The position numbers and the translations under genes were made by a program. Shown here in pieces: positions 12,696 through 59,656 of a stretch of 64,000 bases of DNA. This DNA comes from Blastococcus sp. URHD0036. Its GTDB lineage: Bacteria; Actinomycetota; Actinomycetes; Mycobacteriales; Geodermatophilaceae. The notes under the pieces were generated by a model, which worked only from the letters and a program-made list of their open reading frames with translations, was not told the DNA's origin and did no database searches. The stretch lies in assembly GCF_000701365.1 (NCBI RefSeq), contig NZ_JNIK01000017.1:62001-126000 (forward strand). Direction: 5' to 3'. How positions within the stretch are numbered: the first letter of the stretch is position 1; every line of letters begins with the position of its first letter.

Positions 12696-13478
12696 TCACG
12701 GCGCGGCCCGGCGGGCGAACAGCCGCGCCGTCTGCTCGGCGGTCCCGACCAGCCGGCCGTCGGACCACATCGACACCCGGCCCACCCCCAGCCGCTCGTC
12801 CACCGCCACCAGCGACACCTCGAGCAGCACCCACTCCCCCAGCGGCACACCCGCCGACCGAAGCGTCGCCGCGACGGTCGCCACCCCGGCGACCTCCGGG
12901 AGCGCGCGCCGCAGCAGGTACGGCACGTGATCGCTCACCACCGCGAGCCGCACCTCGTCGGCGACCGGGCAGCGCAGGCTCGCCCACAGCAGCGCGCGGC
13001 CGCCGGCGCGCACGTCCAGCTGCTCGGCCGCCAGCCGGACGTCGAGCAGCACCGACGTCCCGGTGCCGGGCCCGGTCAGCCACGTCCGGGGCGGGCACTC
13101 CGCCGGCGGCGGGACCGACGGCGCGACGAGGCCCTCAGGAGTGGCAGCGACCGGCCCGGTGACCGCCGTGGCCACCAGCGCCGGGGAGCCGCCGGTCAGC
13201 GCCTCGATCCGCACCGACGCGAGCGATCCCGCCGGGCCCAGCACCTCGGCCCGCACGGTGAGGTCGCTCCCGGCCGGGGCGGGCCGCAGGTAGGTGAGCG
13301 AGAGGTCGCGCAGCCGGCGGCCGGTGACCTGCTGCGCCACCTCGGTGACCAGCCCGAGGCACCAGCCGCCGAACAGCGCGCCGCGCGAGTTCGACACCTC
13401 GGGGCCGATCCGGACCGTGACCGCGCCGTCCACGACGGCCGGCAGCGGGGACAACGGCCACGCTGCGGGCTCAGCCAC
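12696..13478 (-). CDS. acyl-CoA thioesterase, double hot-dog (TesB-like)
   Basis: A 260-residue protein made of two hot-dog halves. The first holds VSNSRGALFGGWCLGLVTEVAQQVTGR, then LSLTYLRPAPAGSDLTVRAEV, typical of thioesterase superfamily beta-strands; the second ends GVGRVSMWSDGRLVGTAEQTA. Expected role: hydrolysis of acyl-CoA to free CoA, relieving or finishing the neighbouring CoA pathway. GTG 13478 overlaps the ligase stop by 8 nt (GTGGCTGA). Third gene of the run enoyl-CoA hydratase, ligase, thioesterase. Assignment to the fold is good; substrate chain type is unknown. Confidence 0.82.
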   Translation of the reverse strand: MAEPAAWPLSPLPAVVDGAVTVRIGPEVSNSRGALFGGWCLGLVTEVAQQVTGRRLRDLSLTYLRPAPAGSDLTVRAEVLGPAGSLASVRIEALTGGSPALVATAVTGPVAATPEGLVAPSVPPPAECPPRTWLTGPGTGTSVLLDVRLAAEQLDVRAGGRALLWASLRCPVADEVRLAVVSDHVPYLLRRALPEVAGVATVAATLRSAGVPLGEWVLLEVSLVAVDERLGVGRVSMWSDGRLVGTAEQTARLFARRAAP

Positions 13479-15102
13479 CGAAGGCGGAGCGCAGCTCGCG
13501 CTTGAGCACCTTGCCGCTGGCGTTGCGCGGCAGGTCGTCGGCGAACTCGACCGACCTCGGCACCTTGAAGTTAGCCAGCCGCTCCTTGGCCCAGGCGATC
13601 AGCTCCTCGGCGGTGCCCTCGGCGCCGCGGCGGCGCACCACGTAGGCCTTCGGAACCTCTCCCAGCCGCTCGTCGGGGACGCCGACCACGGCCACCTCCG
13701 ACACCAGCGGGTGGCGGGCCAGCACCTGCTCCACCTCGGCCGGGGAGACGTTGAACCCGCCGACGATGAACATGTCCTTGAGCCGGTCGGTGATCTTGAG
13801 GTTGCCGGCGGCGTCGAGGTGGCCGATGTCGCCGGAGTGCAACCAGCCGTCGGGGTCGATGGCGGCGGCCGTCGCGGCCGGGTCCTCCCAGTAGCCGGGG
13901 GTCACGTTGGCGCCGCGGATGAGAACCTCGCCGGACTCCCCCGGCGGCAGGTCCTGGCCGCCGGCGTCGACCACGCGCAGCTCGACACCGGGCACGGCGC
14001 GGCCGTTGGTGTTGGCGATGACGTCGTCGCCGTCGCCGTCCCGGCACATGGTCGCCGTCCCGATGCACTCGGTCATGCCGTACGCGGTGACGAGCCGCTC
14101 GAAGGGCAGGTCCACCCGCGACCGCTCGATGAGCGCGACCGGCACTACGGCCGCGCCGGTGGCCGCCCGCCGCAGCGACGACAGATCCGTCGACTCACGC
14201 TTCGGACTCTCCAGCAGCGCGTAGTAGATCGTCGGCGAGCCGTTCATGATCGACACCCGCTCGGTCTCGATCAGCCGCAGCGCCTCGTCGGCGTCGAACA
14301 CCGCCATGGGGACGACGGTGAGCCCGTGCTGCAGGCTGACGATCATCCCGGCCTTGTTGCCACCGGTGTGGAAGAACGGCAGGACGACGAGGTACCGGTC
14401 GCCCTCCCGCAGGCCCCAGACCTGCGCGTACGTGGCGTAGAGGTCCAGCGCGGGGCCGTGCTGGATCAGCACGCCCTTGGGCCGGCCGGTCGTCCCCGAG
14501 GTGAAGATGATCTCGCTCGTGTCGTCGGGCTGCACCGCCTCCGCGGCGGCCCGGATGCGGTCCTCCGGAACCGTCGCGGCGCGCTCCCGCAGGTCCTCCC
14601 GGCCGAGCACCCGCCGGCCGGCGTCCCCGCGGTCGGCCGCCAGGTCGACGACGGTGAGGTCGGCGAGCACGTCGCCGGTCTCGTCCCCGTCGAGTGCCTC
14701 CAGCGCGGCGGTCGCGTAGTCGTAGCCCAGGAACCCCGACTGGACGACGACGAAGCGGGCGCGGACCCGGGCGAGGATCTCCCGCGCCTCCGACCCCCGG
14801 TAGCGGGTGTTCAGCGGCACGACGGTGGCGCCGGCCAGGTGCAGCCCGAGCGAGGCGACCATCCAGCGGTGCGTGTTGGGCGCCCACAGCCCGACCCGGT
14901 CGCCCCGCCGGACGCCCAGCGCGAGCGCGCCCCGGCCGAACTCCAGCGCCTGGTCGCGCAGCTGCGCGTAGGTCAGCCGGACGTCGCCGTCGGCCACCGC
15001 CACGGAGTCGGCGTACCGCTCCGCGCTGGCGAAGAGCATCGCCGGGATGGTCCGCTCCGTCGCCGTCAGCGCTTCCATGTCCGCCCTCTCAGCAGTGGTC
15101 AT
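13471..15102 (-). CDS. FadD3-family acyl-CoA ligase (AMP-forming)
   Basis: A 543-residue ANL enzyme that adenylates a carboxylic acid and then forms the CoA thioester. P-loop TSGTTGRPKG, A5 motif TAYGMTECIG, A7/A8 HSGDIGHLDAAGNLKITDRLKD and catalytic lysine PRNASGKVLKREL are all present. Phrases such as PNTHRWMVASLGLHLAGA and TDRLKDMFIVGGFNV closely follow mycobacterial FadD3, the ligase for the steroid-derived HIP propionate, so a bulky alicyclic acid substrate is plausible but not shown. ATG 15102 overlaps the hydratase stop (ATGA). Confidence 0.92.
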   Translation of the reverse strand: MTTAERADMEALTATERTIPAMLFASAERYADSVAVADGDVRLTYAQLRDQALEFGRGALALGVRRGDRVGLWAPNTHRWMVASLGLHLAGATVVPLNTRYRGSEAREILARVRARFVVVQSGFLGYDYATAALEALDGDETGDVLADLTVVDLAADRGDAGRRVLGREDLRERAATVPEDRIRAAAEAVQPDDTSEIIFTSGTTGRPKGVLIQHGPALDLYATYAQVWGLREGDRYLVVLPFFHTGGNKAGMIVSLQHGLTVVPMAVFDADEALRLIETERVSIMNGSPTIYYALLESPKRESTDLSSLRRAATGAAVVPVALIERSRVDLPFERLVTAYGMTECIGTATMCRDGDGDDVIANTNGRAVPGVELRVVDAGGQDLPPGESGEVLIRGANVTPGYWEDPAATAAAIDPDGWLHSGDIGHLDAAGNLKITDRLKDMFIVGGFNVSPAEVEQVLARHPLVSEVAVVGVPDERLGEVPKAYVVRRRGAEGTAEELIAWAKERLANFKVPRSVEFADDLPRNASGKVLKRELRSAFGG

Positions 15103-15900: not shown

Positions 15901-15916
15901 CAACGTATTAAAGATG
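15901..15916. promoter_or_regulatory. operator-like 16-bp dyad, site 3 of the CATC-N8-GATG set
   Basis: Read on the minus strand it is CATCTTTAATACGTTG, within a 41-nt gap upstream of the hydratase operon. Its 12-base core ATCTTTAATACG is identical to the site at 30039. The AT content contrasts strongly with the surroundings. It also holds a TACGTT/TTTAAT -10-like element. Confidence 0.6.
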
Positions 15917-16723: not shown

Positions 16724-16739
16724 AATCATTAGGAGGATA
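16724..16739. promoter_or_regulatory. operator-like 16-bp dyad, site 6 of the CATC-N8-GATG set
   Basis: AATCATTAGGAGGATA lies between the divergent SDR and NTF2-like genes. It matches the site at 30039 at 12 of 16 positions and shares CGTCAATCATT (16720-16730) with the region at 36888. Its right half includes the AGGAGG ribosome site of the gene at 16749, which may inflate the match. Confidence 0.45.
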
Positions 16740-18956: not shown

Positions 18957-19544
18957 TCAGCCGGTCGGGTCGTCGATCAGGGCCTGCAGGGCGCGGGCGT
19001 AGACCGCGAGGACCTCGGCCGTCGGTCGGCCGGCCAGCCCGGTGTCGGGCCGGCCGCGCAGGTCGAACAGCAGGCCGTTGACCTGCGTCGCGACGAGCCG
19101 CGCCCGCAGTTCCCGGTCGGGACCGGTCAGCCGCTCGGCCAGCGGTGCGACGACGTGCCGGTCGGCCGACGCCTCCAGGTAGCTGCGCACCTCCGGGCGG
19201 TCGATCGCCCCGATCAGCGCGGCGTAGGTGGAGATCGCAGCACCTCCGCGGACGGTGAGCAGCCGCTCGAGGATCAGCCGGCCGAGGTCCTCCAGCGGTC
19301 CCTCGGCCAGGCCGCGGAAGGCCTCGTCGACCGTCATGGTCTGCAGGAAGAGGGCCTCCTTGGAGCCGAAGTGCCGGATCACCAGGGAGGGGTCCACGCC
19401 GGCCGCCGCCGCGACCTCGCGCACCGACACGGCGTCGTAGCTCTTGGCCCCGAAGAGCCGCGCGGCGGCCGTCCGGATCGCCTCCTGGACGTGCGTGGAG
19501 GGCGGGCGTCCACGCCCGCGACGCACCACACCGGAATCGGTCAC
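18957..19544 (-). CDS. TetR family regulator divergent from P450
   Basis: A 195-residue repressor-like protein. The N-terminal helix-turn-helix (residues about 20-65) reads AIRTAAARLFGAKSYDAVSVREVAAAAGVDPSLVIRHFGSKEALF. The ligand domain ends in a TetR_C-like QVNGLLFDL segment. GTG 19544 has no obvious ribosome site. It is divergent from the P450 across 65 nt that contain a strong dyad, so it most likely represses the P450-ferredoxin-ligase operon and itself until a substrate binds. Confidence 0.88.
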   Translation of the reverse strand: MTDSGVVRRGRGRPPSTHVQEAIRTAAARLFGAKSYDAVSVREVAAAAGVDPSLVIRHFGSKEALFLQTMTVDEAFRGLAEGPLEDLGRLILERLLTVRGGAAISTYAALIGAIDRPEVRSYLEASADRHVVAPLAERLTGPDRELRARLVATQVNGLLFDLRGRPDTGLAGRPTAEVLAVYARALQALIDDPTG

Positions 19545-19563: not shown

Positions 19564-19580
19564 TGCCAACAGCGTTGACA
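19564..19580. promoter_or_regulatory. probable TetR operator between TetR and P450 genes
   Basis: TGCCAACAGCGTTGACA is a 17-bp pseudopalindrome (TGYCAAC-AGC-GTTGRCA, one mismatched pair). Its right end TTGACA is a good -35 for the P450 gene; a weak -10 (GAGGAT) follows 17 nt later and would give a nearly leaderless transcript. The position suits repression of both divergent genes. Confidence 0.65.
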
Positions 19581-20911: not shown

Positions 20912-21100
20912 ATGCGGGTCGAGGTGCACCGTGACCGGTGCCTGGCGACGGCGGCGTGCGTCTACACCGCCCCGGGCGTCTTCGACGTCGGGGACGACGC
21001 GGTCGTCGTGGTGATCGGCGATCCGGAGAGCGACCCGGAGGCGGTCCGCAACGCCGTCCTCGAGTGCCCGGTGGCGGCGCTGGAGCTGATCGAGGACTGA
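20912..21100 (+). CDS. [3Fe-4S] ferredoxin partner of P450
   Basis: A 62-residue single-cluster ferredoxin. Cluster residues are Cys10 and Cys16 (CLATAAC, with Ala where a fourth cysteine would be) and Cys52 in ECPVAAL, followed by the conserved APGVFDVGDD loop near residue 20. Three cysteines mean a 3Fe-4S cluster, the usual redox partner of actinobacterial P450s. ATG 20912 follows GGGAGGG. Its stop TGA overlaps a CTG that appears to start the next gene. Confidence 0.93.
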   Translation: MRVEVHRDRCLATAACVYTAPGVFDVGDDAVVVVIGDPESDPEAVRNAVLECPVAALELIED

Positions 21101-22903: not shown

Positions 22904-23671
22904 CTACCGGGCCCGCCGCACGACCCGCGGGCCGATGAGCTGCGCGGCCCGGTCGGTGAACTCCCGGACGAGCCGGCCGGTGGACTGCGCCGTCGTCCCG
23001 GAGGCCCGGTGCAGCGGATAGGTGACGCCCATCCCGACCAGCACGCCGCCCGGCAGCCCGGCCACGGCCGCGACCCCGCCGACGTCCAGGTGCGTCTCCT
23101 CGCGGACCTCGGCCCACCCGCGCTCGCGGACCAGCTCGACGTCGCGCCGGAGCAGCTCCGGATCGGTGAGCGTCCGCGGCGTCACCGCCGGCAGCGGGCC
23201 CGCCAGCAGCGCGGGCAGCGCGTCGGGGCGTGCGGCCAGGACGGCCCGGCCGATCGCGGTCGCGTGCAGGGGCGTCGAGCCGAGCTGGTCCTGCTCCACG
23301 GCGCGCACCGCGTGGCCACTCTCGGCCAGGTCGAGCAGCACGACGTCCAGCGACTCGACGAGGAAGCACCGGACCGTCTCCTGCGTCGCGTCCCGGAGCT
23401 CCAGCACGAGCGGGCGCACCACCTCGGTCAGCGTCGTCCGCTCCATCACCCGCTGGCCGACGACGGCGCAGCGCAGCGTCAGTCCCCACCGGGCGTCGGC
23501 GTCCCGGCGCACCCAGCCGGCGGCCTCCAGGGTGGCCAGCGTCCGCTGGACCGTCGACTTCGGCAGACCGAGCTGCCGGGCGAGTGCGCTGACACCCACG
23601 CCGTCGCTCAGGCTGAGCTCCTCCAGCACGGTCAGCGCGGTGACCGCGCTGCGGTTCCCCTCGTCCGCCAC
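22904..23671 (-). CDS. IclR family transcriptional regulator
   Basis: A 255-residue regulator. The winged helix-turn-helix (residues about 8-65) reads AVTALTVLEELSLSDGVGVSALARQLGLPKSTVQRTLATLE. The effector domain contains LHATAIGRAVLA and the closing GVLVGMGVTYPL region. IclR proteins repress or activate catabolic operons in response to small acids and usually control their own operon. GTG 23671 lies 3 nt after the upstream SDR stop, so it is the last gene of the operon starting at 27999. That operon's promoter carries the most symmetrical copy of the shared 16-bp dyad, making this the best candidate regulator for that set. Confidence 0.92.
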   Translation of the reverse strand: MADEGNRSAVTALTVLEELSLSDGVGVSALARQLGLPKSTVQRTLATLEAAGWVRRDADARWGLTLRCAVVGQRVMERTTLTEVVRPLVLELRDATQETVRCFLVESLDVVLLDLAESGHAVRAVEQDQLGSTPLHATAIGRAVLAARPDALPALLAGPLPAVTPRTLTDPELLRRDVELVRERGWAEVREETHLDVGGVAAVAGLPGGVLVGMGVTYPLHRASGTTAQSTGRLVREFTDRAAQLIGPRVVRRAR

Positions 23672-23674
23672 CGC

Positions 23675-24568
23675 TCAGCCCGCCGCGGGGTCAGGCAGGC
23701 CGGCGGCCCGGGCGGGCACGGTGGCGCCGGTCAGGTCGCGGACGGCGGCGATGCTCCCCGCGAGGCGGTCGGCGGTGAGCTCGGCGTCGAAGACCCCCGC
23801 GTTCCGGACCATCGCGTACCGGGCCACCCGGCCGCCACCGGCGGAGAAGATCTCGCCCGTCGCCTCGTTCTCCCGGCTGCAGAGGTAGACCACGGCCTCG
23901 GCCGCCAGCCGCGGCGGGTAGAGCCGCTTCAGGCGGTCGGCCACCTCCGGCGGGCCGCCCTTGGCCAGCCGCGAGTACGCGACCGGGCAGAGGCCGTTGA
24001 CCCCGATCCCGTGCGCCGCACCGGTCAGCGCGGCGTCGGCGTCCAGGCCGATCAGGCCCGCCTTGCCCGCGGCGTAGGGCGCGTTGTGGCCCATGCCGAG
24101 CATGGCGCCGGACATGACGTTGACGATCCGGCCGTACCCCTGCGCCCGCATGTGCGGCCAGACCCGGCGCATGAGCATGTACGGCCCGATGAGGTTGGTC
24201 CGCAGCACGCCTTCGACCTGCTCGTCCTCGAAGGCGTCCAGCTCGCCGAGGATCGAGCCCCCGGCGTTGTTGACCAGGACGTCGATCCGGCCGAAGGCCT
24301 CCAGCGCGCGGTCCACGATGGCGCGCGCGGCCTCGCCGGTCCCCACCGTCGTGGCGTCGGCCACCGCCGTGCCGCCCTCGGCGACGATGCCGTCGGCCAC
24401 GGAACGGGCGATGTCAGCCGACCCGGGCTCCAGCGTCGACGCCGCACCGCCGTAGTCGTTCACCACCACACTGGCGCCGCGGCGGGCGAGCAGCTGCGCG
24501 ATGTCGCGCCCCATCCCACGGCCGGCGCCGGTGACGATCGCGACCTGGCCGTCGAAGCGGATGCTCAC
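23675..24568 (-). CDS. SDR family oxidoreductase (HSD17B4/hydroxyacyl-CoA dehydrogenase-like)
   Basis: A 297-residue SDR. TGAGRGMGRDIA, VVVNDYGGAAS (the acidic loop of NAD-type multifunctional-enzyme dehydrogenases), LVNNAGGS, catalytic serine in VMSGAM and YAAGK are present. The C-terminal extension with GEIFSAGGGRVARYAMVRNAG is shared with peroxisomal MFE-2-like enzymes that oxidise 3-hydroxyacyl-CoA. GTG 24568 overlaps the DUF1214 stop (GTGA). It fits a beta-oxidation step. Confidence 0.88.
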   Translation of the reverse strand: MSIRFDGQVAIVTGAGRGMGRDIAQLLARRGASVVVNDYGGAASTLEPGSADIARSVADGIVAEGGTAVADATTVGTGEAARAIVDRALEAFGRIDVLVNNAGGSILGELDAFEDEQVEGVLRTNLIGPYMLMRRVWPHMRAQGYGRIVNVMSGAMLGMGHNAPYAAGKAGLIGLDADAALTGAAHGIGVNGLCPVAYSRLAKGGPPEVADRLKRLYPPRLAAEAVVYLCSRENEATGEIFSAGGGRVARYAMVRNAGVFDAELTADRLAGSIAAVRDLTGATVPARAAGLPDPAAG

Positions 24569-25809
24569 GCCGCGAACCTGCGCCGCACGGAGTCGCGCCG
24601 GCGGGCGATCTGCGCCGCCCGCTCGGCCGGGGACACCACCCCGGTCCCCGGCGAGAGGGAGTTCCGGATCCGGTCGTGCGGCACCACCGTGCACCGCGGC
24701 TCGGGCCCCCGGTCGGCGACGACCCAGCGCAGGACCATCGCCCCGGAGGGATGGCCCATCGTGTCCAGCCAGTTGGGGACGCCCGGGTCGCGGTGCGCCA
24801 CCACGGCCCGGAAGACCCCGTCGTCGTCGACGGTGGCCTGGCTGTCGTTGATGCTCGTGTGGCCGACGGCGTAGTCCAGCGACTCCCGCCACGGGTTGGT
24901 GAGGGCCACGCTCCAGTAGCGGGCGGGAACGGGCTCCACCTCGATCACCAGCGCCTCGTCCGGCGCCAGGTCGAAGTGCCCGTGGCTCATGATGTTCTCC
25001 TGCGCGCCGGTGTCCTCGGTCCGGGTGCGCGCCGGCGCGAAGGCGTTGCGCCAGAGCTCCCGGTCGGTGGTCTCCCGGTCGAGGTAGTAGTCCGTGATCG
25101 TCTCGAACCAGGAGCCGACCGCGCCGACCAGCGCCGCGACCCGCTCCGGCCGCCCGGGGTGCGCCGCCGTCGGGGCGGGCCCGTCGACCGCCTCGATCGT
25201 GACGGTGGCCGCCCGCTCTCTCTCCCAGTCGGAGAAGAACTGGCGCACGAACAGCGAGTCGGTGTCGTCGGTGGTCGGCAGCCAGTTCCCCTCGCGCGGC
25301 TCCGGCCCGAGCCAGAGCTCGAAGCTGCCGTCGGGTCCGACGGACATCTGGTCGGCGCGCAGGTTGCCGACCGTCCCGTTGCGCCCCTCCGTCTGGAAGC
25401 CCAGGTACCGGACCGAACCGGTCGAGCCCCGGACGCGGTAGGTGGTGCCGCCCCGGATTCGCGCGCTGCGGTACAGGGCGTCGGGGCAGTCGTGGCCGTA
25501 CTTGTAGACGTCGGTCCGCCAGGGGCTCAGCGCCGGGGAGGCGGGGTCGCACGCGGCCAGGGCCTGGTTCACCCCCACCTGCAGCATCGCCAGCAGGTGG
25601 CGGTATCCGGTGGACCGGTCGAGGTCGGTGTCCGGCAGGCCCGCGCCCCGGATCCGCTCCCCGGCCGCGCGCAGGGAGTCGCAGAAGCGGGCCCAGGCCT
25701 CCCCGTCGACGAGCTCGGCCACCGCCGCCGGGTCGGCGTCGGGGGCCTCGCTGATCGTGGCCGGCCGCCAGGTCAGGCCGGGCGCCGAGCCGCCAGGGCG
25801 GTCAGCCAC
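24565..25809 (-). CDS. DUF1214 domain-containing protein
   Basis: A 414-residue protein. The C-terminal half carries the DUF1214 signature (ARYWSVALTNPWRESLDYAVGHTSIN, then VVAHRDPGVPNWLDTMGH). The N-terminal half (YRHLLAMLQVGVNQALAACDPASP, KYGHDCPDALYRSARIRGGTTYRVRG) is common to catabolic-cluster members. No function is established for the family; it often sits next to sulfotransferases, SDRs or oxidoreductases in actinobacterial catabolic loci. GTG 25809 overlaps the sulfotransferase stop by 8 nt (GTGGCTGA). No signal peptide or membrane segment is visible. Confidence 0.85.
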   Translation of the reverse strand: MADRPGGSAPGLTWRPATISEAPDADPAAVAELVDGEAWARFCDSLRAAGERIRGAGLPDTDLDRSTGYRHLLAMLQVGVNQALAACDPASPALSPWRTDVYKYGHDCPDALYRSARIRGGTTYRVRGSTGSVRYLGFQTEGRNGTVGNLRADQMSVGPDGSFELWLGPEPREGNWLPTTDDTDSLFVRQFFSDWERERAATVTIEAVDGPAPTAAHPGRPERVAALVGAVGSWFETITDYYLDRETTDRELWRNAFAPARTRTEDTGAQENIMSHGHFDLAPDEALVIEVEPVPARYWSVALTNPWRESLDYAVGHTSINDSQATVDDDGVFRAVVAHRDPGVPNWLDTMGHPSGAMVLRWVVADRGPEPRCTVVPHDRIRNSLSPGTGVVSPAERAAQIARRRDSVRRRFAA

Positions 25810-26962
25810 GGGAGGTCCGGGTGAACGCGGGGAACCGCTCGGAGTAGAAGGCGAAGCGCCGCCGCAGGTCGTCCGCGGTCACGCCGTAGGTCTCCGGCTC
25901 GTGCCGGCGGGCCCCCTGCCGGTCGCGGGAGTTCGCGTCCCACCACGCCGTCATCCGCTCGGCGGCGACGTCCGACAGGTCCTCCCCCAGCCACGCGTAC
26001 AGCGCGCGCACCTGGCCCATCGGGTCGGCCTGCATGTCGGCGAAGCCGATGTCGAAGAAGCGGTCCGCGTTGCCCGCGTCGCGGAAGGCCAGCAGCCGGC
26101 GCAGGCACTCGACCCGGACGTCGGCCAGGTGCCGGCCGAGGTAGGGCAGATCGGGCTCGGTGGTCAGCGGCGTCAGCAGCGAGGAGAACAGGGCCGCCTC
26201 CGACGGGATCATCGCCTCGACCGCCCGGTGGGTCTGGACGAAGCGGGCGTCGGGGTACACCGCGTCGAGCGCGGTCATGGCGTGCAGGTGCGGAGGGCTG
26301 CGCACGAACCAGTTCTTCGGCCCGCAGCGCCACTGCAGCATCTGCAGGACCCGGCGGTGGTAGCGGTAGGCCGGCGTCATGTCGCAGCCGAACAGCCACG
26401 CGCCGTAGGAGGGGATCCGGCCCCAGGACTCGAAGAGCTGGGAGCGGAAGTCGAAGGCGAGCAGGTAGACGCACTCGTTCGGGCCCTCGGCGTCGAGCGG
26501 GACCATCTCCCGGTAGCCGGGGAAGTCCCGCCACATCGCCTCGACGCGTTCCCGGGTGCGCGCGATGCGGGGGTCGGAGTGCTCGGTCGCCTTCTCCGGC
26601 GGCGGGCTGGGGAACCACGCCTCCCACGTGCGCAGCACCCGCCGGCCGGGGTCCTGGGCGAGGACGAACCCGAGTGCGGTCGAGCCCGTGCGGCCGAGGC
26701 CGAGCCCGACCAGCGGGGCGACGATCTGCTCGTCGGCGATCTCCGGGTGCTCGGCCCAGCTGCGCTCGAACTCCAGCCGTGCCGCGAGCTGGTCGACGAT
26801 CTGCCCGGCGTGGAACGCCTCGCCCTGCGCGGTCAGCGCCGCCTCGGAGTTCAGCGAGTCGACCAGCGCGGTGAGCCCCTCCTGCCAGGTGTCGGGCCCG
26901 AGGTCGTCGAGGCCGGTGCGGCGCCGGGCCTCGGCCACCAGGGCGCCGACGTCGAGGGTCAT
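25802..26962 (-). CDS. sulfotransferase family protein
   Basis: A 386-residue PAPS-dependent sulfotransferase-like protein. The 5'-phosphosulfate loop is GLGLGRTGSTAL (residues 86-97). PKNWFVRSPPHLHAMTALDAVYPDARFVQTHRAVEAMIPS resembles the 3'-phosphate binding and dimer region of the Sulfotransfer_3 class. ATG 26962 overlaps the epimerase stop (ATGA). A sulfotransferase inside an apparently catabolic operon is unusual; it could modify an alcohol to aid elimination or solubility, or the family may be misapplied in this group. Adjacent: epimerase upstream, DUF1214 downstream. Confidence 0.86.
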   Translation of the reverse strand: MTLDVGALVAEARRRTGLDDLGPDTWQEGLTALVDSLNSEAALTAQGEAFHAGQIVDQLAARLEFERSWAEHPEIADEQIVAPLVGLGLGRTGSTALGFVLAQDPGRRVLRTWEAWFPSPPPEKATEHSDPRIARTRERVEAMWRDFPGYREMVPLDAEGPNECVYLLAFDFRSQLFESWGRIPSYGAWLFGCDMTPAYRYHRRVLQMLQWRCGPKNWFVRSPPHLHAMTALDAVYPDARFVQTHRAVEAMIPSEAALFSSLLTPLTTEPDLPYLGRHLADVRVECLRRLLAFRDAGNADRFFDIGFADMQADPMGQVRALYAWLGEDLSDVAAERMTAWWDANSRDRQGARRHEPETYGVTADDLRRRFAFYSERFPAFTRTSRG

Positions 26963-27999
26963 CGGGCCGCTCCGTCGAAGACCCCGGGGTGGTAGTGCTC
27001 GATCGCCCGTCTCATGCCGTCCTGCCAGCGGTGCCGGCAGTCCCCGATGAGGCCCCGGCGCTTGGCCGGATCCCCGATCCGCGAGTCCCAGGTGACCTCG
27101 CGCTCCTCGAAGCGCACCTCCAGGCCCGCCAGGTCGGCGAAGTACTGGCAGTACTGGCGCTGGGAGACGGCGTCGTCGCCGTTCCAGTTCACGATGGTGG
27201 CCGGCACCGAGGCGATGTCGAACAGCGGCCCGCTCGCCTGCTCGGCGATGTCCCGCTCGTCGATCGGCGAGCACCAGTCGTCGTGCCCGATCGGGACCGC
27301 GATCGGCTCGCCGCGGAGCATCATGCCGAACTGCTCGACGGCGATCCCGCCCTTGCGGGAGGTGCCGTAGGCGGTGTTCATCCGCGCGATGGTGGTCGGC
27401 ACGCCGAGGATCTGCGCCGCCGACTGGACCGCCGCCTCGGCCGCCAGCTTGCTCACCGTGTAGCTGGGCAGGGGGACGTAGGTGCCGCCGAGGGGGTCGG
27501 TCTCCACGTGCCAGTGGTCGGGCTCGAGGTGCGCGTAGACCGCGCTGGTGGAGACGTGGACGAACGCCTCGGCCGTGCGGCAGTGGGCCATCAGCATGGC
27601 GGCGCCCACGGCGTTGGTCTGCACGGCGACGTCGTGCCGCGGGTCGAAGTCCACCGCCGCGTGGAGGACGTGGGTGAAGTCGGTGGGCAGGCCGGGCATC
27701 TCCGGGTCGCCGAGCGTCCAGCGGACGGTGCGCAGGCCCTGCTGCTCCAGCTCCGCCCGGACCGCGGGACCGTCGTACTGCTTGGTGTCACCGCCGGCGG
27801 GACCGGTCGCCGGCGCGGCCACCGACGGATCGGAGAAGCGCGCGGCGCACCAGACCTCGTTGTCGGACGCCAGGGCCAGCGCGATCGACCGGGCGACGTT
27901 GCCCGTCGCCCCGGTGATGAGGACCTTCTTGTCCGTGAGCATCCAGCCGCCGTCCCCTCGAGCCACCGCCGTGCCGCTGTGCGGCACGACGTTCTCCAT
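26959..27999 (-). CDS. NAD(P)-dependent epimerase/dehydratase (extended SDR)
   Basis: A 346-residue extended SDR. Cofactor loop VLITGATGNVARSIA, HAAVDFDP, catalytic VSTSAVYAH and YTVSK are present. The C-terminal substrate half holds WCSPIDERDIAEQASGP. ATG 27999 is the longest start; ATG 27942 (MLTDKKVLITGATG) would place the cofactor motif at the usual distance and may be the true start. First gene of an operon running through sulfotransferase, DUF1214, SDR and IclR. Divergent from the LLM gene at 28059 across a shared operator. Confidence 0.85.
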   Translation of the reverse strand: MENVVPHSGTAVARGDGGWMLTDKKVLITGATGNVARSIALALASDNEVWCAARFSDPSVAAPATGPAGGDTKQYDGPAVRAELEQQGLRTVRWTLGDPEMPGLPTDFTHVLHAAVDFDPRHDVAVQTNAVGAAMLMAHCRTAEAFVHVSTSAVYAHLEPDHWHVETDPLGGTYVPLPSYTVSKLAAEAAVQSAAQILGVPTTIARMNTAYGTSRKGGIAVEQFGMMLRGEPIAVPIGHDDWCSPIDERDIAEQASGPLFDIASVPATIVNWNGDDAVSQRQYCQYFADLAGLEVRFEEREVTWDSRIGDPAKRRGLIGDCRHRWQDGMRRAIEHYHPGVFDGAAR

Positions 28000-28037: not shown

Positions 28038-28053
28038 CATCTTCTATAAGATG
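28038..28053. promoter_or_regulatory. operator-like perfect dyad CATCTT-N4-AAGATG, site 1 of the shared set
   Basis: CATCTTCTATAAGATG is a perfect 6-bp inverted repeat with a 4-nt spacer. It covers a -10-like TAAGAT (28047-28052) that ends 6 nt before ATG 28059, implying a leaderless, repressible LLM transcript. It also lies about 40 nt upstream of the divergent epimerase operon, which ends with the IclR gene. Confidence 0.7.
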
Positions 28054-30038: not shown

Positions 30039-30054
30039 AATCTTTAATACGATA
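30039..30054. promoter_or_regulatory. operator-like 16-bp dyad, site 2 of the shared set
   Basis: AATCTTTAATACGATA lies between the divergent DapB-like and acyl-CoA dehydrogenase genes. It includes a -10-like TACGAT (30048-30053) for the dehydrogenase operon, whose first gene has a 30-nt leader and a GGAGGAAG ribosome site. Its core is identical over 12 bases to site 3 at 15901. Confidence 0.6.
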
Positions 30055-30082: not shown

Positions 30083-31108
30083 ATGCAGATCGGCCTGGAC
30101 GCGGAACAGCGCGCGTTCGCGCAGTCCTCCGGCGCGCTCGCCGCGGACCTGGCCGCCGGCTGGGACCGGGGCCGCGGTCCGCACGACGTCGCGTCGCCCG
30201 AGCCGTCAGAGAAGGACTGGGCCCGCATCGTGGACGCCGGGTGGACGGCGCTGCGGCTGCGCGAGGAGAACGGCGGCCTCGGCGCCGGCACGGTCGACGT
30301 CGCCGTCCTCGTCGAGCAGCTGGGCCGGCACTCGGTGGCCGCGCCCGTCCTCGGCACGCTCGTCGCCGCGGAGCAGCTGCAGGCCCTCGGCGCGCCGGTC
30401 GCCACCCTCGAGGCGGTCGCGGCGGGCGAGCTCCGGGTGGCACCGCTGCTCGACGCCCGCCTCCTCGGCTTCGCCCCGTCCGCCGACGACGCACTCGCCT
30501 GGGACTCGGCCGGGGCCACGCTGGCCTACGCCCCCGACGGGTCGGCGCACGCGCTCGGCGAGCCGCTGCCCGCCACCGACGTCACGCGGTCCGTGCGGCG
30601 CCCGGCCGGGCGGGTGGGCGACGCCTCCCTGGAGCTGCGACCCCCCACCGACGACGACCGCGACCGGCTGCACGCGTTCACGCTCACCCTGCTCGTGGCC
30701 GACCTGCTCGGCACGATGGCGGCGGCGCTGGACGCCGCGGTCGAGCACGCGCGGTCGCGCACCCAGTTCGGCAAGCCGATCGGCTCGTTCCAGGCGGTGC
30801 AGCAGATCGCCGCCGAGGACCTGGTGTCGGTGGAGGCCACCCGCAGCGCCCTGTACTTCTCCGCGTGGGCGGTCGACGCGCTGCCCGCCACCGAGGCGCT
30901 GCGCGCGGCCCGGACCGCCAAGGCCTTCGCCTCCCGGGCGGGGGTCGCGGTGTGCCAGGACGTCGTCCAGCTCTTCGGCGGCATCGGCATGACCTGGGAG
31001 TCGCCGGTGCACGTGTGGCTGCGGCGGGCGCAGACCGACCGCACCTCCTTCGGCGACGAGCACGCCCACCAGGCCGTCCTGGCCGACCTCGACCTGACGG
31101 AGCGCTGA
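30083..31108 (+). CDS. acyl-CoA dehydrogenase, small partner subunit type
   Basis: A 341-residue ACAD-fold protein. The C-terminal helical domain shows SRTQFGKPIGSFQAVQQIAAEDL and FGGIGMTWESPVHVWLRRA; the N-terminal REENGGLGAG pattern also fits. The central beta domain is short, and the usual FAD-side TEP/EPGAGSD motif is absent. This is the pattern of one subunit of heterotetrameric alpha2beta2 acyl-CoA dehydrogenases such as mycobacterial FadE28-FadE29. One base separates its stop from the partner gene. ATG 30083 follows GGAGGAAG. Confidence 0.88.
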   Translation: MQIGLDAEQRAFAQSSGALAADLAAGWDRGRGPHDVASPEPSEKDWARIVDAGWTALRLREENGGLGAGTVDVAVLVEQLGRHSVAAPVLGTLVAAEQLQALGAPVATLEAVAAGELRVAPLLDARLLGFAPSADDALAWDSAGATLAYAPDGSAHALGEPLPATDVTRSVRRPAGRVGDASLELRPPTDDDRDRLHAFTLTLLVADLLGTMAAALDAAVEHARSRTQFGKPIGSFQAVQQIAAEDLVSVEATRSALYFSAWAVDALPATEALRAARTAKAFASRAGVAVCQDVVQLFGGIGMTWESPVHVWLRRAQTDRTSFGDEHAHQAVLADLDLTER

Positions 31109-31109
31109 C

Positions 31110-32240
31110 GTGGACTTCTCCGACTCCCCCGAGGTCGCGCGGTTCCGGGCCGGCCTGCGCGCCTGGCTGGCCGAGCACCTCGCCGAGTACGCCGACGGCG
31201 TCTCCTACGACAGCGCCGAGGGGGTCGAGGCGACCCACCGCTGGCACCGGGCGCTCGCCGCGGCGGGCTACGTCGCCGTGTCGCTGGACCCCGAGTACGG
31301 CGGGCGCGGGCTGTCGGACCTGTACGAGGCGGTCATCAACGAGGAACTCGCCGCCGCGGCCGCCCCTCCCCCGCCGCCGATCGGCCACATCGCGCACGCG
31401 GTCGCCGACTTCGCCTCCGCCGACCTCAAGGGCCGGGTGCTGCCGGGTCTGCTCGGCTGCACGGAGAGCTGGTGCCAGGGCTTCAGCGAGCCCGGCGCGG
31501 GCTCGGACCTCGCCGGCCTCTCCACCTCGGCGACCGCGACGGACGACGGCTTCGTGGTGAACGGGCAGAAGATCTGGACGAGCTGGGCCATGTGGGCCGA
31601 CCGCTGCCTGCTGCTGTGCCGGACCGAGCCCGACCAGCCGCGCCACCGCGGGCTGTCGATGCTCGTCGTCGACATGGACACCCCGGGCATCACCCGCCGG
31701 GAGATCACGCTGGCCAACGGCAGCCGCGAGTTCGCCGAGGTCTTCTTCGACGACGTGCGGGTGCCCGCGGCGAACCTCGTCGGCGAGCGCGGGCAGGGCT
31801 GGAAGATCGCCCAGCACATGCTCACCTACGAGCGCGGCCCGGCCGACATGGGCTGGACGGGGAGGCTGGGGAACGTCCTCGCCGCGGCGCAGGAGGCCGT
31901 GCGCTCCGGGCACCTCCCGGCCGACGACGTGCTGCGCCGCCGACTGGCCGCCGTCGCCGTCGACGCCCAGGTGCTGTCGTGGCACGTGGCCCGCTCGCTG
32001 GTCGACCGCTCGTCGGCCGACCCCGGCTCCAGCGGCTCGGTCGACAAGCTGCTGACCACGCGGGTGGAGCAGGAGCTGTACTCGGTGGTCGACGACCTCA
32101 CCGGAGCCGCGGTCGTCGTCGGCGACCAGCGGCCGTTCAACGAGTACCTGTGGTCGCGGGCGCAGTCGATCTACGGCGGCACCCAGCAGATCCAGCGGCA
32201 GATCGTCGCCCAGCGGCTGCTCGGCCTCCCCCGCGGCTGA
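31110..32240 (+). CDS. acyl-CoA dehydrogenase, FAD-motif subunit
   Basis: A 376-residue ACAD. FAD and substrate motifs CQGFSEPGAGSDLAGL and VNGQKIWTSWA are intact, with VFFDDVRVPAANLVGERGQGW following. A glutamate in the TYERGP segment could be the catalytic base, since the MCAD-type site is changed (YGGTQQIQRQI instead of YEGT). Together with the gene at 30083 it probably forms a heterotetramer that desaturates a bulky acyl-CoA. GTG 31110 is 1 nt after the partner stop. Followed by a long hairpin terminator. Confidence 0.92.
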   Translation: MDFSDSPEVARFRAGLRAWLAEHLAEYADGVSYDSAEGVEATHRWHRALAAAGYVAVSLDPEYGGRGLSDLYEAVINEELAAAAAPPPPPIGHIAHAVADFASADLKGRVLPGLLGCTESWCQGFSEPGAGSDLAGLSTSATATDDGFVVNGQKIWTSWAMWADRCLLLCRTEPDQPRHRGLSMLVVDMDTPGITRREITLANGSREFAEVFFDDVRVPAANLVGERGQGWKIAQHMLTYERGPADMGWTGRLGNVLAAAQEAVRSGHLPADDVLRRRLAAVAVDAQVLSWHVARSLVDRSSADPGSSGSVDKLLTTRVEQELYSVVDDLTGAAVVVGDQRPFNEYLWSRAQSIYGGTQQIQRQIVAQRLLGLPRG

Positions 32241-32297: not shown

Positions 32298-33035
32298 TCA
32301 GCGGGTGGTGAAGCCGCCGTCGGCGACGAACTCCGAGCCGGTGCAGTACGAGGACTCCGCCGAGGCGAGGAACAGCACCAGGTCGGCGATCTCGTCCGGC
32401 CGGCCCAGGCGGGCGATCGGCTGGGTGCGCACCTGCGCCGCGGACGGGGTGTCCGCCGGCGTCATCTCCGTCTCGATGAGACCGGGGTGCACCGAGTTGA
32501 CCCGGATGCCGTCGGCGGCGAGTTCCTGGGCCGCCGCCTTGGTCATCCCACGCACCGCCCACTTCGCCGCGACGTAGCCCAGCACGTTCGGGAACGACAC
32601 GATGCCGCCGATCGACGAGACGTTGACGATCGACCCGCCGCCGGCCCGCCGCATCGGGGGGACGACGGCGCGCATGCCGAGGAACACCCCGACCTGGTTG
32701 ACGTCGACCACCCGCCGGTAGTCGTCCTCCGAGAGCTCCGCCAGCGGCCCGCCGTGCACGATCCCGGCGTTGTTCACCAGCACCGACACCGGCCCGAACC
32801 GCTCCTCGGCGAAAGCCAGGCACGCCGTCCACGCGTCGGCATCGGTGACGTCGAGCTCGACGAACGCGGCCCGCTCCCCGAGCCCGGAGGCCACCGCCCG
32901 ACCCTGGTCGGTGCGGACGTCGGCCACGACGACCGCCGCCCCCTCGGCGTGCAGCCGCCGTGACGTGGCGGCGCCGATCCCTCCGGCGCCGCCCGTCACG
33001 ACCGCGACGAGCCCCGCGACCCGCCCCTCAGACAG
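32298..33035 (-). CDS. SDR family oxidoreductase, probable CTG start
   Basis: A short-chain dehydrogenase of about 245 residues: VVTGGAGGIGAATS, LVNNAGI, VSSIGG, YVAAK and the end GSEFVADGGFTTR. GTG 32999 would start inside the cofactor loop and delete the first beta strand. The frame continues in register to CTG 33035, giving a normal N-terminus (LSEGRVAGLVAVVTGG), with GGGACAG just upstream. That CTG overlaps the stop of the molybdenum hydroxylase gene by 8 nt (CTGTCTGA), matching the spacing of two GTGGCTGA junctions in this window. Last gene of the M-S-L-SDR operon. Confidence 0.85.
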   Translation of the reverse strand: MSEGRVAGLVAVVTGGAGGIGAATSRRLHAEGAAVVVADVRTDQGRAVASGLGERAAFVELDVTDADAWTACLAFAEERFGPVSVLVNNAGIVHGGPLAELSEDDYRRVVDVNQVGVFLGMRAVVPPMRRAGGGSIVNVSSIGGIVSFPNVLGYVAAKWAVRGMTKAAAQELAADGIRVNSVHPGLIETEMTPADTPSAAQVRTQPIARLGRPDEIADLVLFLASAESSYCTGSEFVADGGFTTR

Positions 33036-35411
33036 CCGCTGTCCCGTCGATGACGTCCAGCACGACCTCCGGGGTCAGCGGCTGCACGTTCGGCAACCCG
33101 CCGAAGGGCGCGAGCGCGTCCCGGACGGCGTTGATGAGCGCCGGCGGCGAGCAGATCGCCCCGCCCTCGCCCATCGGCTTGAACCCGCCGGGCGTGTTGG
33201 ACGGCGTGACGACGTGCCCGATCTCGATGTCCGGGACGTCGGCCGCGGTGGGCAGCAGGTAGTCCAGGAACGTCGTCGTCAGCGGGTTGCCGTCGCCGTC
33301 GTAGACGAAGTGCTCGTAGAACACCCCGCCGATGCCCTGGACGACGCCGCCGGTGATCTGCCCCTCGACCACCATCGGGTTGATCATGTTCCCGCAGTCC
33401 TCGCTGACCACGTACCGCTTGATGTCCACCGCGCCGGTGTCCCGGTCGATCTCCACGATCGCGGCGTGGCAGGCGTTGGAGAACATCAGCGGGGGGTTCC
33501 GGATCCGGTGCTTGGCCTCCAGGCCCGGCTCCATCTCCGGCGGGAGCATCGTGTGCCCGGCGTAGGCCATGGCCGCGACCTGCTCGATGGTCACGGCCGC
33601 GCCCGGGGTGCCCTTGACCGACACCACGCCGTCGGAGACCTCCAGGTCGTCCGGGGACGCCTCGAGCGCCACCGCAGCGACGGCGAGGATCTTCTCCTTG
33701 AGCTTCTGCCCGGCGATGCGGGCGGCCCCGCCGAACGTGGTCGCCGTCCGGCTGCCCGCGGTGCCGGTTCCGTAGGGCGCCGACGTCGTGTCGCCCTGGA
33801 TGATCCGGACGTCGTCGATGTCGATGCCGAGCTCCTCGGCGACGACCTGCGCCATCGTCGTCTCGACGCTCTGCCCGTGGCTGCCGCTGCCCATGAACAC
33901 CAGCGCCTTGCCGGCCATGTCCATGCGGACGGTGACCTGCTCGGCCCCGGCCGCACCGAAGGCCGGGGAGCCCTCGATGTAGGAGGCGAACCCGATGCCG
34001 AGGATCCGGCCCTCCTCGCGAGCCGCGGCCTGCTCGCGGCGGAAGTCCTCGTAGCCGATGATCTCGGCCGCCTGGTCGAGGGTCTCGATCGGCGTGATCG
34101 TCTCCAGGACCAGCCCGGTGGGCGTGCTGAACGGCAGCTGCTCGGGCGTGATCATGTTCCGCCGGCGGAACTCCAGCGGGTCGATGCCCAGCTTCGCGGC
34201 GGCGATGTCGACCAGCTGCTCGCGGGCGACGGTCTCCATGAGGAACGGCCCCCGGTAGGGCGTCATCCCGCAGGTGTTGGAGAAGACCGCCTCGGCCGAG
34301 TAGAAGTACTGCCCGACGTCGTAGGGCCCGGGCAGCATCATCATCGCCAGGCCGGCGTTGCCGCCCACGCCGTAGGTCGGATAGGCGCCGACGTCCTCCA
34401 CGTGGTGGCCCTTGATGCCGAGGATCTTCCCGTCGGCGTCGGTCGCCATGGTGACGGTCAGGTCCTCGGTGCGAGAGTGTCCGCCGGCCACGAGGTTCTC
34501 GTTGCGGTCCTCGATCCAGGCGACCGCGCACTGCTGGGAGTAGGCGGCCGCGGCGACGGCCAGCTCCTCCTTGTCGACGAAGCACTTGAGCCCGAACGCG
34601 CCGCCGACGTCCTCGGCGCGGGCCTGCACCTGCAGGTCGCTGAGCCCCAGCAGGCGGGCGACCATCGACCGGACCTCGTGCACGTTCTGCGTCGAGGAGA
34701 CGATCTCCAGCATGTCGCGGGCCGGGTCCCAGCGGGCCTGCAGGCCCCGGGTCTCCATGGGCACGCAGATGTAGCGGTGCTGGTGGAACCGCTCCTCGAA
34801 CACGTGCGCCGCCGAGGAGAGCACCTCCTCCAGCGCCGGGTTCTCCGTCGGCATCCCGGGATAGGGCAGCGTCGAGGCGACGTTCGACCCGTACTCGGGG
34901 TGCACCAGCTCCTCGTCCTTGGCCGCGCCCCACACCCCGCGGTGGTCGGAGACGACCGCCGGCTGCGCGTCGATGTCGAGGTCGATCAGCTCCAGGGCGT
35001 CCTCGGCGAGGTACCGGGAGTCGGCCAGCACCATCGCGATCGGCTCGCCGGCATAGCGGACGTCGTCGGCGGCCAGCAGCCGGCGCGGCGGCTGGGGCGA
35101 GTCCTTGCCCATGGCCGTCTGCCAGAACGACTTGGCCAGCGGGTTCAGCTCGGCGCCGGTCAGCACCGCACGGACGCCCGGGAGGGCCGCCGCCGCCGAC
35201 ACGTCCAGCGTGGTGATCCGGCCCCGGGCCACGGGGCTGCGGAGGAAGGCGACGTGCGCGGCGTCGGGCCACAGCACGTCCTCGAGGTAGCGGCCGTGCC
35301 CGGTGACGAGCCGGGCGTCCTCCCGGCGCTTGACCGACTGGCCGAGGAATCGGCCGACCCCGGAGTGGCTGCCCGACTGCGTGCCGGCGGCGGGGCCGGA
35401 CTCGACGGCGG

Positions 35412-35415
<4 letters not shown>
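33028..35415 (-). CDS. molybdopterin hydroxylase large subunit (xanthine dehydrogenase/CoxL family)
   Basis: The 795-residue catalytic subunit. Substrate and cofactor motifs include QDVGGAFGLK-type EDVGGAFGLKCF, GSGSHGQSVETTMAQ, GTGTAGSRTA and the catalytic-glutamate loop PMGEGGA near the C-terminus. The active-site loop reads TPYRGPF around residue 385, not the AYRSFR of form I CO dehydrogenase, so CO oxidation is unlikely; aldehyde, purine or aromatic-ring hydroxylation is more plausible. GTG 35415 overlaps the small-subunit stop (GTGA). The substrate is unknown. Confidence 0.92.
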
Positions 35416-35998
<583 letters not shown>

Positions 35999-36002
<4 letters not shown>

Positions 36003-36865
36003 CGGTTCGCCTCCTGCAGAGCGGACTCCAGCGCGCGGGCCACGAGCCGGGAGGCCACGCGGGTGCGGTAGCGGCCCGACGCGTGGACGTCGGACGGCGG
36101 GTCGACGTCGGCGACGGCCGCCGCGCCGACCTCGGTCAGGTCGAGGCCGGACGCGTCCGCCCCGACCAGGTGCGCCTCGGCGGCGCGGGCACGCAGCGGC
36201 ACCGGGCCCATGCCGAACAGCGAGATCGCCGCCCGGCTGATCTTCCCGTCGGCGACGGTGACGCCGACGACGGTGCCGGCGGTGGCGAAGTCGCCCTCGC
36301 GGCGGGCCATCTCCCGGACGGCGAACCCGCTGCCGGGCCCCCAGACCGGGAAGGAGACCGCGGCGAGGATCTCGTCGTCGGACAGCGTCGAGGTCATCGG
36401 CCCGTCGTAGAGGTCGGTCGCCGCGATCTGCCGCTGCCCGCCCGGCCCGGCCACGGTCACGGTGGCGTCGAGCGCGGTGACGACGGCGGGGTACTCGGCC
36501 GCCGGGTCGCCGTGCGCGATCGAGCCGCCGAGGGTGCCGCGGTTGCGGATCTGGAAGTGGCCGATCAGGCGGGTGGCCTCGGCGAGCACCGGGACCGACC
36601 GGGCGACCAGCGGGTCGGCCTCGACGGTGGCCTGCCGGGTCATGGCGCCGATGACGACCGCGCCGTCGTCCTCGCGGACGTAGGCCAGCTCGTCGACCCG
36701 GTTGAGGTCCACGAGGGCCTCGAACCGGGCGAGCCGCAGCGCGAGGACGGGCACGAGGCTCTGGCCGCCGGCGAGGACCTTGGCCTCGTCCCCGTAGCGG
36801 CCGAGCACGTCGACGGCCTCAGCGAGGGTCGTCGGCGCCTCGTAGGTGAACGGAGCAGGCTTCAC
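35999..36865 (-). CDS. FAD-binding medium subunit of molybdopterin hydroxylase
   Basis: A 288-residue CoxM-like flavoprotein. FAD motifs VLAGGQSLVPVLALRLA and IRNRGTLGGSIAHGDPAAEYP are intact. It accepts electrons from the 2Fe-2S subunit and hands them to a downstream carrier. GTG 36865 has GGAGAG upstream. First gene of the M-S-L-SDR operon; an AT-rich dyad of the shared set lies 14-29 nt upstream of the start. Confidence 0.94.
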
Positions 36866-36878
36866 TGACTCTCCAGTC

Positions 36879-36894
36879 CATCAAGTAAATGATT
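36879..36894. promoter_or_regulatory. operator-like 16-bp dyad, site 5 of the shared set
   Basis: CATCAAGTAAATGATT on the plus strand (minus: AATCATTTACTTGATG) lies upstream of the molybdenum hydroxylase operon. Its CATC-N8-GATT form matches the other sites with one arm mismatch. It is followed by TTGACGTCAT, which contains a perfect TGACGTCA. Confidence 0.55.
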
Positions 36895-37570: not shown

Positions 37571-37585
37571 CTGAACGGCGCTCAG
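37571..37585. promoter_or_regulatory. TetR-type operator, copy A
   Basis: CTGAACGGCGCTCAG differs at only one base from the copy at 38360 and is nearly palindromic. It begins 4 nt downstream of the VOC promoter -10 and so covers the expected transcription start. Confidence 0.75.
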
Positions 37586-37645: not shown

Positions 37646-38296
37646 TCACCCCGCGTCGGCGAGACCGGGCACCATCCGGCGCAGGACGTCCAGCGCGGCG
37701 TCGACCACGACGTCGGCCTCGGCGCGGGTCGTGCAGGCGGCCACCGCGCGGCAGGCCCCGCCCATCGCCGCCGACGCCATCTCGACCAGCACCTGCGTGG
37801 CGGTGCCCGCCGGCAGGTCCAGCAACTGCTCGGCGTGCAGACGCAGCCACGAGCGGCTCAGCGCCCGGTCCTCGGCGGAGAAACCCGGCGGGAGGTCGCC
37901 GTTGAGCGCCATGTGCACGATGTCGCGGGCGTCCCAGCAGTGCGAGAGGTACGCCCGGGCCCCGACGAGGAACAGCGCCCGGCCGTCGTCCTGGCCCGAC
38001 TCCCGCGCGCTCTCGAGCGCCTGGCGGGTGTCCTGCCACTGCCGCTGCTGGTAGTCGCTCCAGACGGCCCGGTACAGGCCCTCCTTGTTCGTGAAGTGGT
38101 AGTAGAGGAGCCCGACGCTGACGCCGGCCTCCTCGGCGATCCGCGCCACGCTGGCCTTGTGGAACCCCAGGCCCGCGAAGGTCGTGCGGGCCACCTGCAG
38201 GATCGTGCGGGCGGTGCCGTCGAGGACCGGCGGCGCCTCCGCGGGGTCTCCGGGAGCGGCGACGCCGGGCGTCTCGTCGTTCCGGACTCGTGTCAC
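37646..38296 (-). CDS. TetR/AcrR family regulator
   Basis: A 216-residue regulator. After an extended N-terminal arm of about 28 residues, the helix-turn-helix reads ILQVARTTFAGLGFHKASVARIAEEAGVSVGLLYYHFTNKEGLY. The C-terminal ligand domain is alanine-rich. GTG 38296 is the start. Two near-identical 15-bp dyads flank the gene: one upstream of its promoter facing the MBL/Rieske gene, the other over the VOC promoter. It therefore probably controls itself, the VOC gene and the gene at 38398. Confidence 0.9.
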   Translation of the reverse strand: MTRVRNDETPGVAAPGDPAEAPPVLDGTARTILQVARTTFAGLGFHKASVARIAEEAGVSVGLLYYHFTNKEGLYRAVWSDYQQRQWQDTRQALESARESGQDDGRALFLVGARAYLSHCWDARDIVHMALNGDLPPGFSAEDRALSRSWLRLHAEQLLDLPAGTATQVLVEMASAAMGGACRAVAACTTRAEADVVVDAALDVLRRMVPGLADAG

Positions 38297-38359: not shown

Positions 38360-38374
38360 CTGAACGACGCTCAG
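38360..38374. promoter_or_regulatory. TetR-type operator, copy B
   Basis: CTGAACGACGCTCAG lies between the TetR gene and the divergent MBL/Rieske gene, 23 nt before ATG 38398. It is identical to copy A except for the central base. Confidence 0.75.
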
Positions 38375-44700: not shown

Positions 44701-44711
44701 CGTCGTCGTCC

Positions 44712-46306: not shown

Positions 46307-46320
46307 GTGGTGGTCCTCCC

Positions 46321-47646: not shown

Positions 47647-47677
47647 GCGGCACTCCTCGGTGATCACTGCTGGGAAT

Positions 47678-55543: not shown

Positions 55544-55559
55544 TATCATTACAACTATA
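55544..55559. promoter_or_regulatory. AT-rich promoter patch, degenerate match to the shared dyad
   Basis: TATCATTACAACTATA matches the site at 16724 at 11 of 16 positions and lies about 100 nt upstream of the ligase start. The adjacent ATCACTATC (55539-55547) is also found in the palindrome at 59639. It is a weak candidate only. The wider gap 55446-55682 holds this patch and a terminator but no gene. Confidence 0.3.
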
Positions 55560-56296: not shown

Positions 56297-56312
56297 CATC
56301 AATACAAAGATG
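56297..56312. promoter_or_regulatory. operator-like dyad CATC-N8-GATG, site 4 of the shared set
   Basis: CATCAATACAAAGATG (minus: CATCTTTGTATTGATG) is a perfect CATC/GATG dyad in the 136-nt divergent region between the NTF2-like gene and the acyl-CoA ligase operon. With a flanking C and G it extends to CCATC-N8-GATGG. Confidence 0.6.
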
Positions 56313-59638: not shown

Positions 59639-59656
59639 GGATAGTGATCACTATCC
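59639..59656. promoter_or_regulatory. perfect 18-bp palindrome in a divergent promoter region
   Basis: GGATAGTGATCACTATCC is fully self-complementary with no spacer. It sits 22 nt upstream of the hydratase start and 68 nt upstream of the SDR/molybdenum hydroxylase operon. It is a strong candidate operator; no regulator gene lies adjacent within the window. Confidence 0.65.

Follow-up and report, generated by a model that had tools for sequence, protein, structure and literature searches.

We analysed a window of 64,000 nucleotides on contig C16 of a 5.18-Mb genome from the Geodermatophilaceae (Trujillonella/Blastococcus-like). It carries a series of catabolic genes, and 16-bp dyads lie in front of several of them (Table 1). 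Reading of the window sequence confirmed all six dyads of the original prediction, each at its coordinates and on its strand. The formula given for them, (C/A)ATC-N8-GAT(G/A), held for five; the dyad at 15901 on the minus strand reads CATC-N8-GTTG, one letter off, and its GTTG end is also present in both same-genus relatives. The dyads do sit in AT-rich islands, with a GC content of 0.45 to 0.60 in the 40-mers around them as against 72 to 79% GC in the DNA at large, and the -10-like TANNNT described for two of them is present as TAAGAT at 28038 and as TACGAT at 30039.

Table 1. Dyads, catabolic genes and regulators. Positions are those of the window unless contig C3 is named.
Feature	Position	Strand	Context
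Dyad CATCTTTAATACGTTG	15901..15916	-	5' of ECH-FadD3 genes (15899 down to 13471); 19.45 bits; identical in G001 and G002
Dyad AATCATTAGGAGGATA	16724..16739	+	between divergent SDR 16702(-) and SnoaL 16749(+); 20.41 bits
Dyad CATCTTCTATAAGATG	28038..28053	+	between divergent epimerase 27999(-) and LLM 28059(+); 26.31 bits
Dyad AATCTTTAATACGATA	30039..30054	+	between divergent DapB-like 29980(-) and acyl-CoA dehydrogenase 30083(+); 23.69 bits
Dyad AATCATTTACTTGATG	36879..36894	-	5' of Mo-hydroxylase FAD subunit 36865(-); 25.48 bits
Dyad CATCTTTGTATTGATG	56297..56312	-	between SnoaL 56228(-) and ligase 56365(+); 23.94 bits
Weak dyad-like site TATAGTTGTAATGATA	55544..55559	-	5' of AMP-ligase 55445(-); 14.98 bits
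C3 dyad	C3:180078		aldehyde DH/SnoaL promoter
C3 dyad	C3:182139		P450 promoter
C3 dyads, overlapping pair	C3:197949 and C3:197958		ligase/PadR promoter
C3 dyad, weaker	C3:207659		GMC oxidoreductase; poorly kept in relatives
C3 dyad	C3:213996		ECH/213856
FadD3-family acyl-CoA ligase	13471..15078	-	behind dyad 15901; NF005801, 675.3 bits (cutoff 657)
Two acyl-CoA dehydrogenase genes	30083..32240	+	behind dyad 30039; PF00441, PF02770, PF02771
Molybdenum hydroxylase genes (FAD, Fe-S, Mo subunits)	32996..36865	-	behind dyad 36879; PF00941, PF01799, PF20256 and others
TetR1 regulator	18957..19529	-	PF00440; own palindrome 19565-19579
IclR-family regulator	22904..23671	-	PF01614, PF09339; candidate of the original prediction
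TetR2 regulator	37646..38296	-	PF00440; palindrome CTGARYNNNRYTCAG in its promoter

Among the neighbours are acyl-CoA dehydrogenases with IpdE2 as their best NCBIfam match, far under its cutoff. Other neighbouring genes encode a thiolase adjoining a ChsH2-type OB-fold protein, P450s, a GMC oxidoreductase and a solute-binding ABC transporter. Together with the FadD3-family ligase these neighbours hint, weakly, at steroid- or terpenoid-like carboxylates, and the substrate is perhaps of that kind.

For comparison we used two same-genus genomes, G001 and G002, each 99% complete, and Blastococcus endophyticus (L037), which has a partial copy of the cluster. Several features of the window stood out in their own right. 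One reading frame (21064-22902) fuses a SnoaL-like domain to an AMP-binding ligase, and a single gene (38398-39849) joins metallo-beta-lactamase-like, Rv3818-type SCP2 and Rieske domains. An inserted gene group at 40327-47667 (HTH-cupin, M20 peptidase, FAD oxidase, glutamate synthase-like, GATase and glutamine synthetase-like genes) is present in G001 and not in the fetched stretch of G002. A DUF222 gene occupies 11014-12594, where the cluster runs on in both G001 and G002 and not in this assembly. Because contig C3 ends in a gene similar to the DUF222 stretch of the same relatives, a rearrangement or a contig break caused by a repeat is likely here.

We asked how rare the dyad is. The bare formula, searched as MATCN8GATR, hit 10 places of the window in 17 rows, where 1.7 rows would be expected; 0 of 100 shuffles reached 17. 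Five of these places have GC-rich sequences and fall within called genes, so the bare formula is loose. The AT-rich form MATCWWWNNNWNGATR occurred at seven places (8 rows) in the entire genome, with 0 for its reversed control; five places are in the window and the others are C14:281091 and C14:284759. Since this form was drawn from window sites, the C14 pair alone counts as independent. Another form, HATCWTNNNNANGATD, had nine places in the genome, five of them in the regulon, again with 0 for the reversed control; the remaining ones were C16:151720 and C16:217053, both inside genes, as well as C5:447 and C18:347829. A one-mismatch pattern search returned 170 rows versus 30 with the reversed control, and the places among the matches listed reach contig C13.

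We then scored DNA with a symmetric weight matrix built from 15 sites of G001, G002 and Blastococcus endophyticus. Its top matches in the window were exactly the six dyads, at 19.45 to 26.31 bits and none in a called gene; the ranking is not fully independent, since two of the 15 sites used in training are orthologs of window sites with exactly the same letters. The window, with 3.0 kb of intergenic DNA, contained six matches of at least 19 bits and nine of at least 14, compared with 0 and four, respectively, in 400 kb of other DNA from the same genome (20 stretches of 20 kb, 47.5 kb intergenic). Equal frequency in unrelated DNA, the outcome that the original prediction had named as speaking against a regulon, was thus not what the relatives' matrix found at the level of the six sites. 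Among 100 random first-order sequences of 64 kb, matches of at least 14 bits averaged 0.17, and the single highest scored 19.59, as against 19.45 for the weakest of the six. Another matrix, trained on the six dyads themselves as had been proposed, recovered the C14 pair (22.8 and 22.6) and four intergenic sites in C3:178-214.5k (17.1 to 23.0); like the window, these two loci encode CoA-type catabolism. In the 400-kb control it gave one match of at least 16, at an intergenic, AT-rich site of 19.6.

Conservation at orthologous loci, which had been named as support, was seen for all six dyads in at least one relative: four are kept at the orthologous promoters of both G001 and G002, and the other two occur in one or two other genomes. 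The dyads at the promoters of ECH 15899 (15901), SnoaL 16749/SDR 16702 (16724) and SnoaL 56228/ligase 56365 (56297) were present in 3 of 3 genomes, the last as the same 16-mer at G001:C28:40271 and G002:C6:40699. At the ACAD 30083/DapB-like 29980 promoter the dyad at 30039 was present in 4 of 4 genomes, with a changed spacer. The dyad at Mo-hydroxylase 36865 was kept in three of four (this genome, G002 and B. endophyticus) and lost in G001. The 28038 dyad at LLM 28059 was found in two of four, this genome and B. endophyticus, the two that have the epimerase-IclR genes; it was absent from G001 and G002, whose clusters are without those genes. Sites 16724 and 36879 had been called the weakest of the set, yet both are conserved to the extent given above. 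A Shine-Dalgarno reading of 16724 was rejected because the dyad is conserved in G001 and G002 and AGGAGG is not.

The weak site at 55544 has orthologs that score 17.03 in G001 and 15.98 in G002 with the relatives' matrix. Across 32 other genomes of the family, the form MATCWWWNNNWNGATR gave 10 rows in total, versus 8 in this genome, 6 in G001 and 8 in G002. One pattern place in G001 (C17:53417) lies outside the regulon, with no gene called around it. In distant homologs of the cluster from proteobacterial MAGs (L040-L044), the best scores were 13.1 to 15.7 in three of five, and the other two had no site of at least 13. A search of the L040, L041 and L042 genomes for the PadR-family protein discussed below returned no match, a blank that does not count as absence.

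The regulon proved larger than first thought, as the dyad recurs on C14 and in C3:180-214k, and in the relatives too. These stretches were picked for scanning because the pattern searches pointed there. Both C14 places are intergenic and adjoin SDR, enoyl-CoA hydratase, thioesterase and AMP-ligase (FadD) genes. The C3 stretch had eight matches of at least 14 bits with the relatives' matrix, seven intergenic and one coding, and C3:178-232.9k is syntenic with a stretch of G001 and G002 that in those genomes shares a contig with the main cluster and adjoins it. In total there are about 13 site places in three loci: the window on C16, C3:180-214k and C14:281-285k. Rarity, conservation and recurrence together support the central claim that the dyads behave as one operator of a set of catabolic operons. 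Very probably a single transcription factor has the dyad as its operator, and that the dyad serves one regulon is, taken alone, a conclusion we hold with great confidence. About a dozen degradation operons are probably switched together, here and in close relatives, and it is plausible that they share one substrate.

From 26 distinct sites we derived the consensus HATCWT-N4-ANGATD. Not counted among them are the GMC-promoter site of G002, the L037 sites, those of the 55544 type, the second of the overlapping pair at the PadR promoter and two weak sites near the SBP gene, one in this genome (14.62) and one in G001 (14.40). T6 and G13 are invariant (26/26); T3, C4 and T15 are each found in 25 of 26 sites, A2 in 24, A14 in 22 and A11 in 20. 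No covariation of the half-sites beyond the make-up of the columns was detected in these 26 sites.

Which protein reads this operator? The odds, as judged from sequence comparisons, lean somewhat toward a PadR-family protein encoded at C3:198020-198688, on a different contig from the window. It is 88-89% identical in G001 and G002, compared with at most 40% in other genomes of the family. Its gene is divergent from an AMP ligase gene, and the two overlapping dyads between them form a conserved block in 3 of 3 genomes; if it reads the dyads, the PadR-family protein would also control its own gene. It matched PF10400 at 27.9 bits (cutoff 22.4), PF03551 (PadR) at 17.1, under the cutoff of 27, and the PadR structure 5x11 in the PDB (E 4.8e-7, residues 11-180); there was no NCBIfam match at 1e-12. 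No strong dyad was found beside PadR homologs of 38-43% identity at three loci, where the best scores were 1.1 to 6.9. At a further 11 homolog loci the best scores were 2.7 to 9.9, apart from a single 15.4 at a site 3' of the gene.

As a rule, a PadR-family protein governs just one or two operons, unlike the regulon described here with its many site places in three loci. The family's repressors have sites in the regulator's own promoter, and the dyad pair likewise stands before the PadR gene. The motif given for the family is ATGT/ACAT, with a linker of 8 nt (PMC5050560). The operator ATGT-N8-ACAT is, like the dyad, a 16-bp inverted repeat in a 4-8-4 layout, but the half-site letters as given there differ from MATC/HATCWT in our 26 distinct sites.

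The same operator and regulon might instead be read by a TetR protein, namely TetR3 (C3:195747-196394), TetR4 (C3:189163-189777) or TetR1, which we consider rather unlikely. TetR operators are often palindromes of 15-20 bp. The TetR3 gene lies 36 bases behind a dyad-preceded ligase, probably in the same operon, and is 84-87% conserved, yet the gap behind its gene is without a dyad apart from a conserved half-site. Of 112 family genomes searched, the three that have the clustered sites are the only ones with a TetR1 ortholog (E<=1e-40), and the promoter that TetR1 shares with the P450 gene holds a dyad in G001 and G002 and a weaker one in B. endophyticus. However, that promoter has no full dyad in the window, and TetR1 of G002 is only 64% identical, yet the dyads there are unchanged. 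A different palindrome, GYCAACNNNGTTGRC, occurs once in each of four clusters, in the TetR1 promoter only, and is a probable TetR1 operator on sequence grounds; in the window it reads GCCAACAGCGTTGAC and stands between TetR1 and the P450 gene. The promoters of TetR1 and TetR2 hold palindromes of their own, so each protein probably has another operator, and both were set back as readers of the dyad. The region of the PadR gene also conserves TetR3, TetR4 and two GntR/FCD regulators, none of them with an operator of its own assigned, and these are possible readers.

The TetR2 palindrome CTGARYNNNRYTCAG lies at 37571-37585 (glyoxalase promoter) and at 38360-38374 (TetR2/SCP2-Rieske promoter); it is also found in the relatives and at C3:180177 beside aldehyde DH/SnoaL, and is a probable TetR2 operator. 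A further perfect palindrome, GATAGTGATCACTATC at 59640-59655, lies in the promoter region between the divergently transcribed ECH 59617(-) and SDR 59724(+). It recurs in G001 and G002, with one end letter different in G001, and is probably the operator of another regulator. Two more regulators of the window were rejected as dyad readers: at an identity above 55%, the HTH-cupin protein (40327-40974) was without a match in the stretch fetched from G002, and the LuxR-type gene (8810-10462) was without one in the stretches fetched from G001 and G002.

The dyad could also be a special -10 or sigma-factor promoter element and not a repressor site, a reading that we regard as improbable. As a raw count, 11 of the 22 pairs of site and gene, and no more, do have a TANNNT inside the dyad. 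Against such an element, both half-sites are conserved, a single site serves divergent genes, the motif is restricted to few loci, and the distance to the gene start varies from 1 to 139 nt across the 22 pairs, measured to the starts called in this analysis. Since several dyads overlap a -10-like hexamer or sit near a gene start, the factor that reads them is more likely a repressor than an activator. A repressor that hides the promoter also fits the P450 promoter of G001, where we saw by eye a TTGACT that precedes the CATGAT in the right half of the dyad by 17 bases.

The IclR protein put forward in the original prediction as reader is not supported. Its gene closes the run that begins next to the most symmetric site (28038), and IclR proteins commonly control catabolic operons. 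But its best matches are only 35% identical in G001 and 31% in G002, nothing in the cluster stretches fetched from these genomes matches genes 22904-27999 at more than 55% identity, and the dyads persist there at other promoters, which makes this candidate very improbable. Least probable of all is a chance likeness of AT-rich promoter DNA: the loose formula with half of its window places within genes, the AT-rich control site and the one high-scoring random sequence favour it, but the concentration of sites in catabolic loci and the 400-kb control speak against it, and the footprints with an altered spacer contradict it.

The proposal that we prefer, with a probability of about 0.55 as a whole, is that a dimeric PadR-family factor (C3:198020-198688) binds the consensus dyad and co-regulates the catabolic regulon. 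The repressor would cover the promoter, and a pathway intermediate, an acyl-CoA or the free acid, would release it. More tentatively, this protein might be the master switch of some 13 promoter regions, acting through the new half-site HATCWT, set in the 4-8-4 layout of its family, on the breakdown of steroid- or terpenoid-like carboxylates.

That the operons of a catabolic regulon share an operator is ordinary, whereas this particular operator and regulon appear to be new. A literature search confined to papers outside subscription recognised no description of the dyad motif or the regulon. In the KstR and KstR2 steroid regulons of actinobacteria, many CoA-type catabolic operons likewise stand under one repressor, and a FadD3-family ligase is present here too; KstR and KstR2, however, are TetR proteins with other operators. 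The Acin motifs are predicted operators in Nocardioides simplex, a steroid-responsive actinobacterium, and the PadR-family gene KR76_26400 lies there in an operon with a predicted Acin3 site (PMC7807495). The likeness to the dyad considered here is one of setting (predicted operators and a PadR-family gene).

Through these results, a set of uncharacterised catabolic operons in Blastococcus-like actinobacteria becomes a defined regulon whose operator can be tested and for which a candidate regulator is named. Membership of the regulon joins unlinked genes of the window, C3 and C14, perhaps as parts of a single pathway, and so helps in the search for its substrate; regulator and operator might be paired in a biosensor for that compound.
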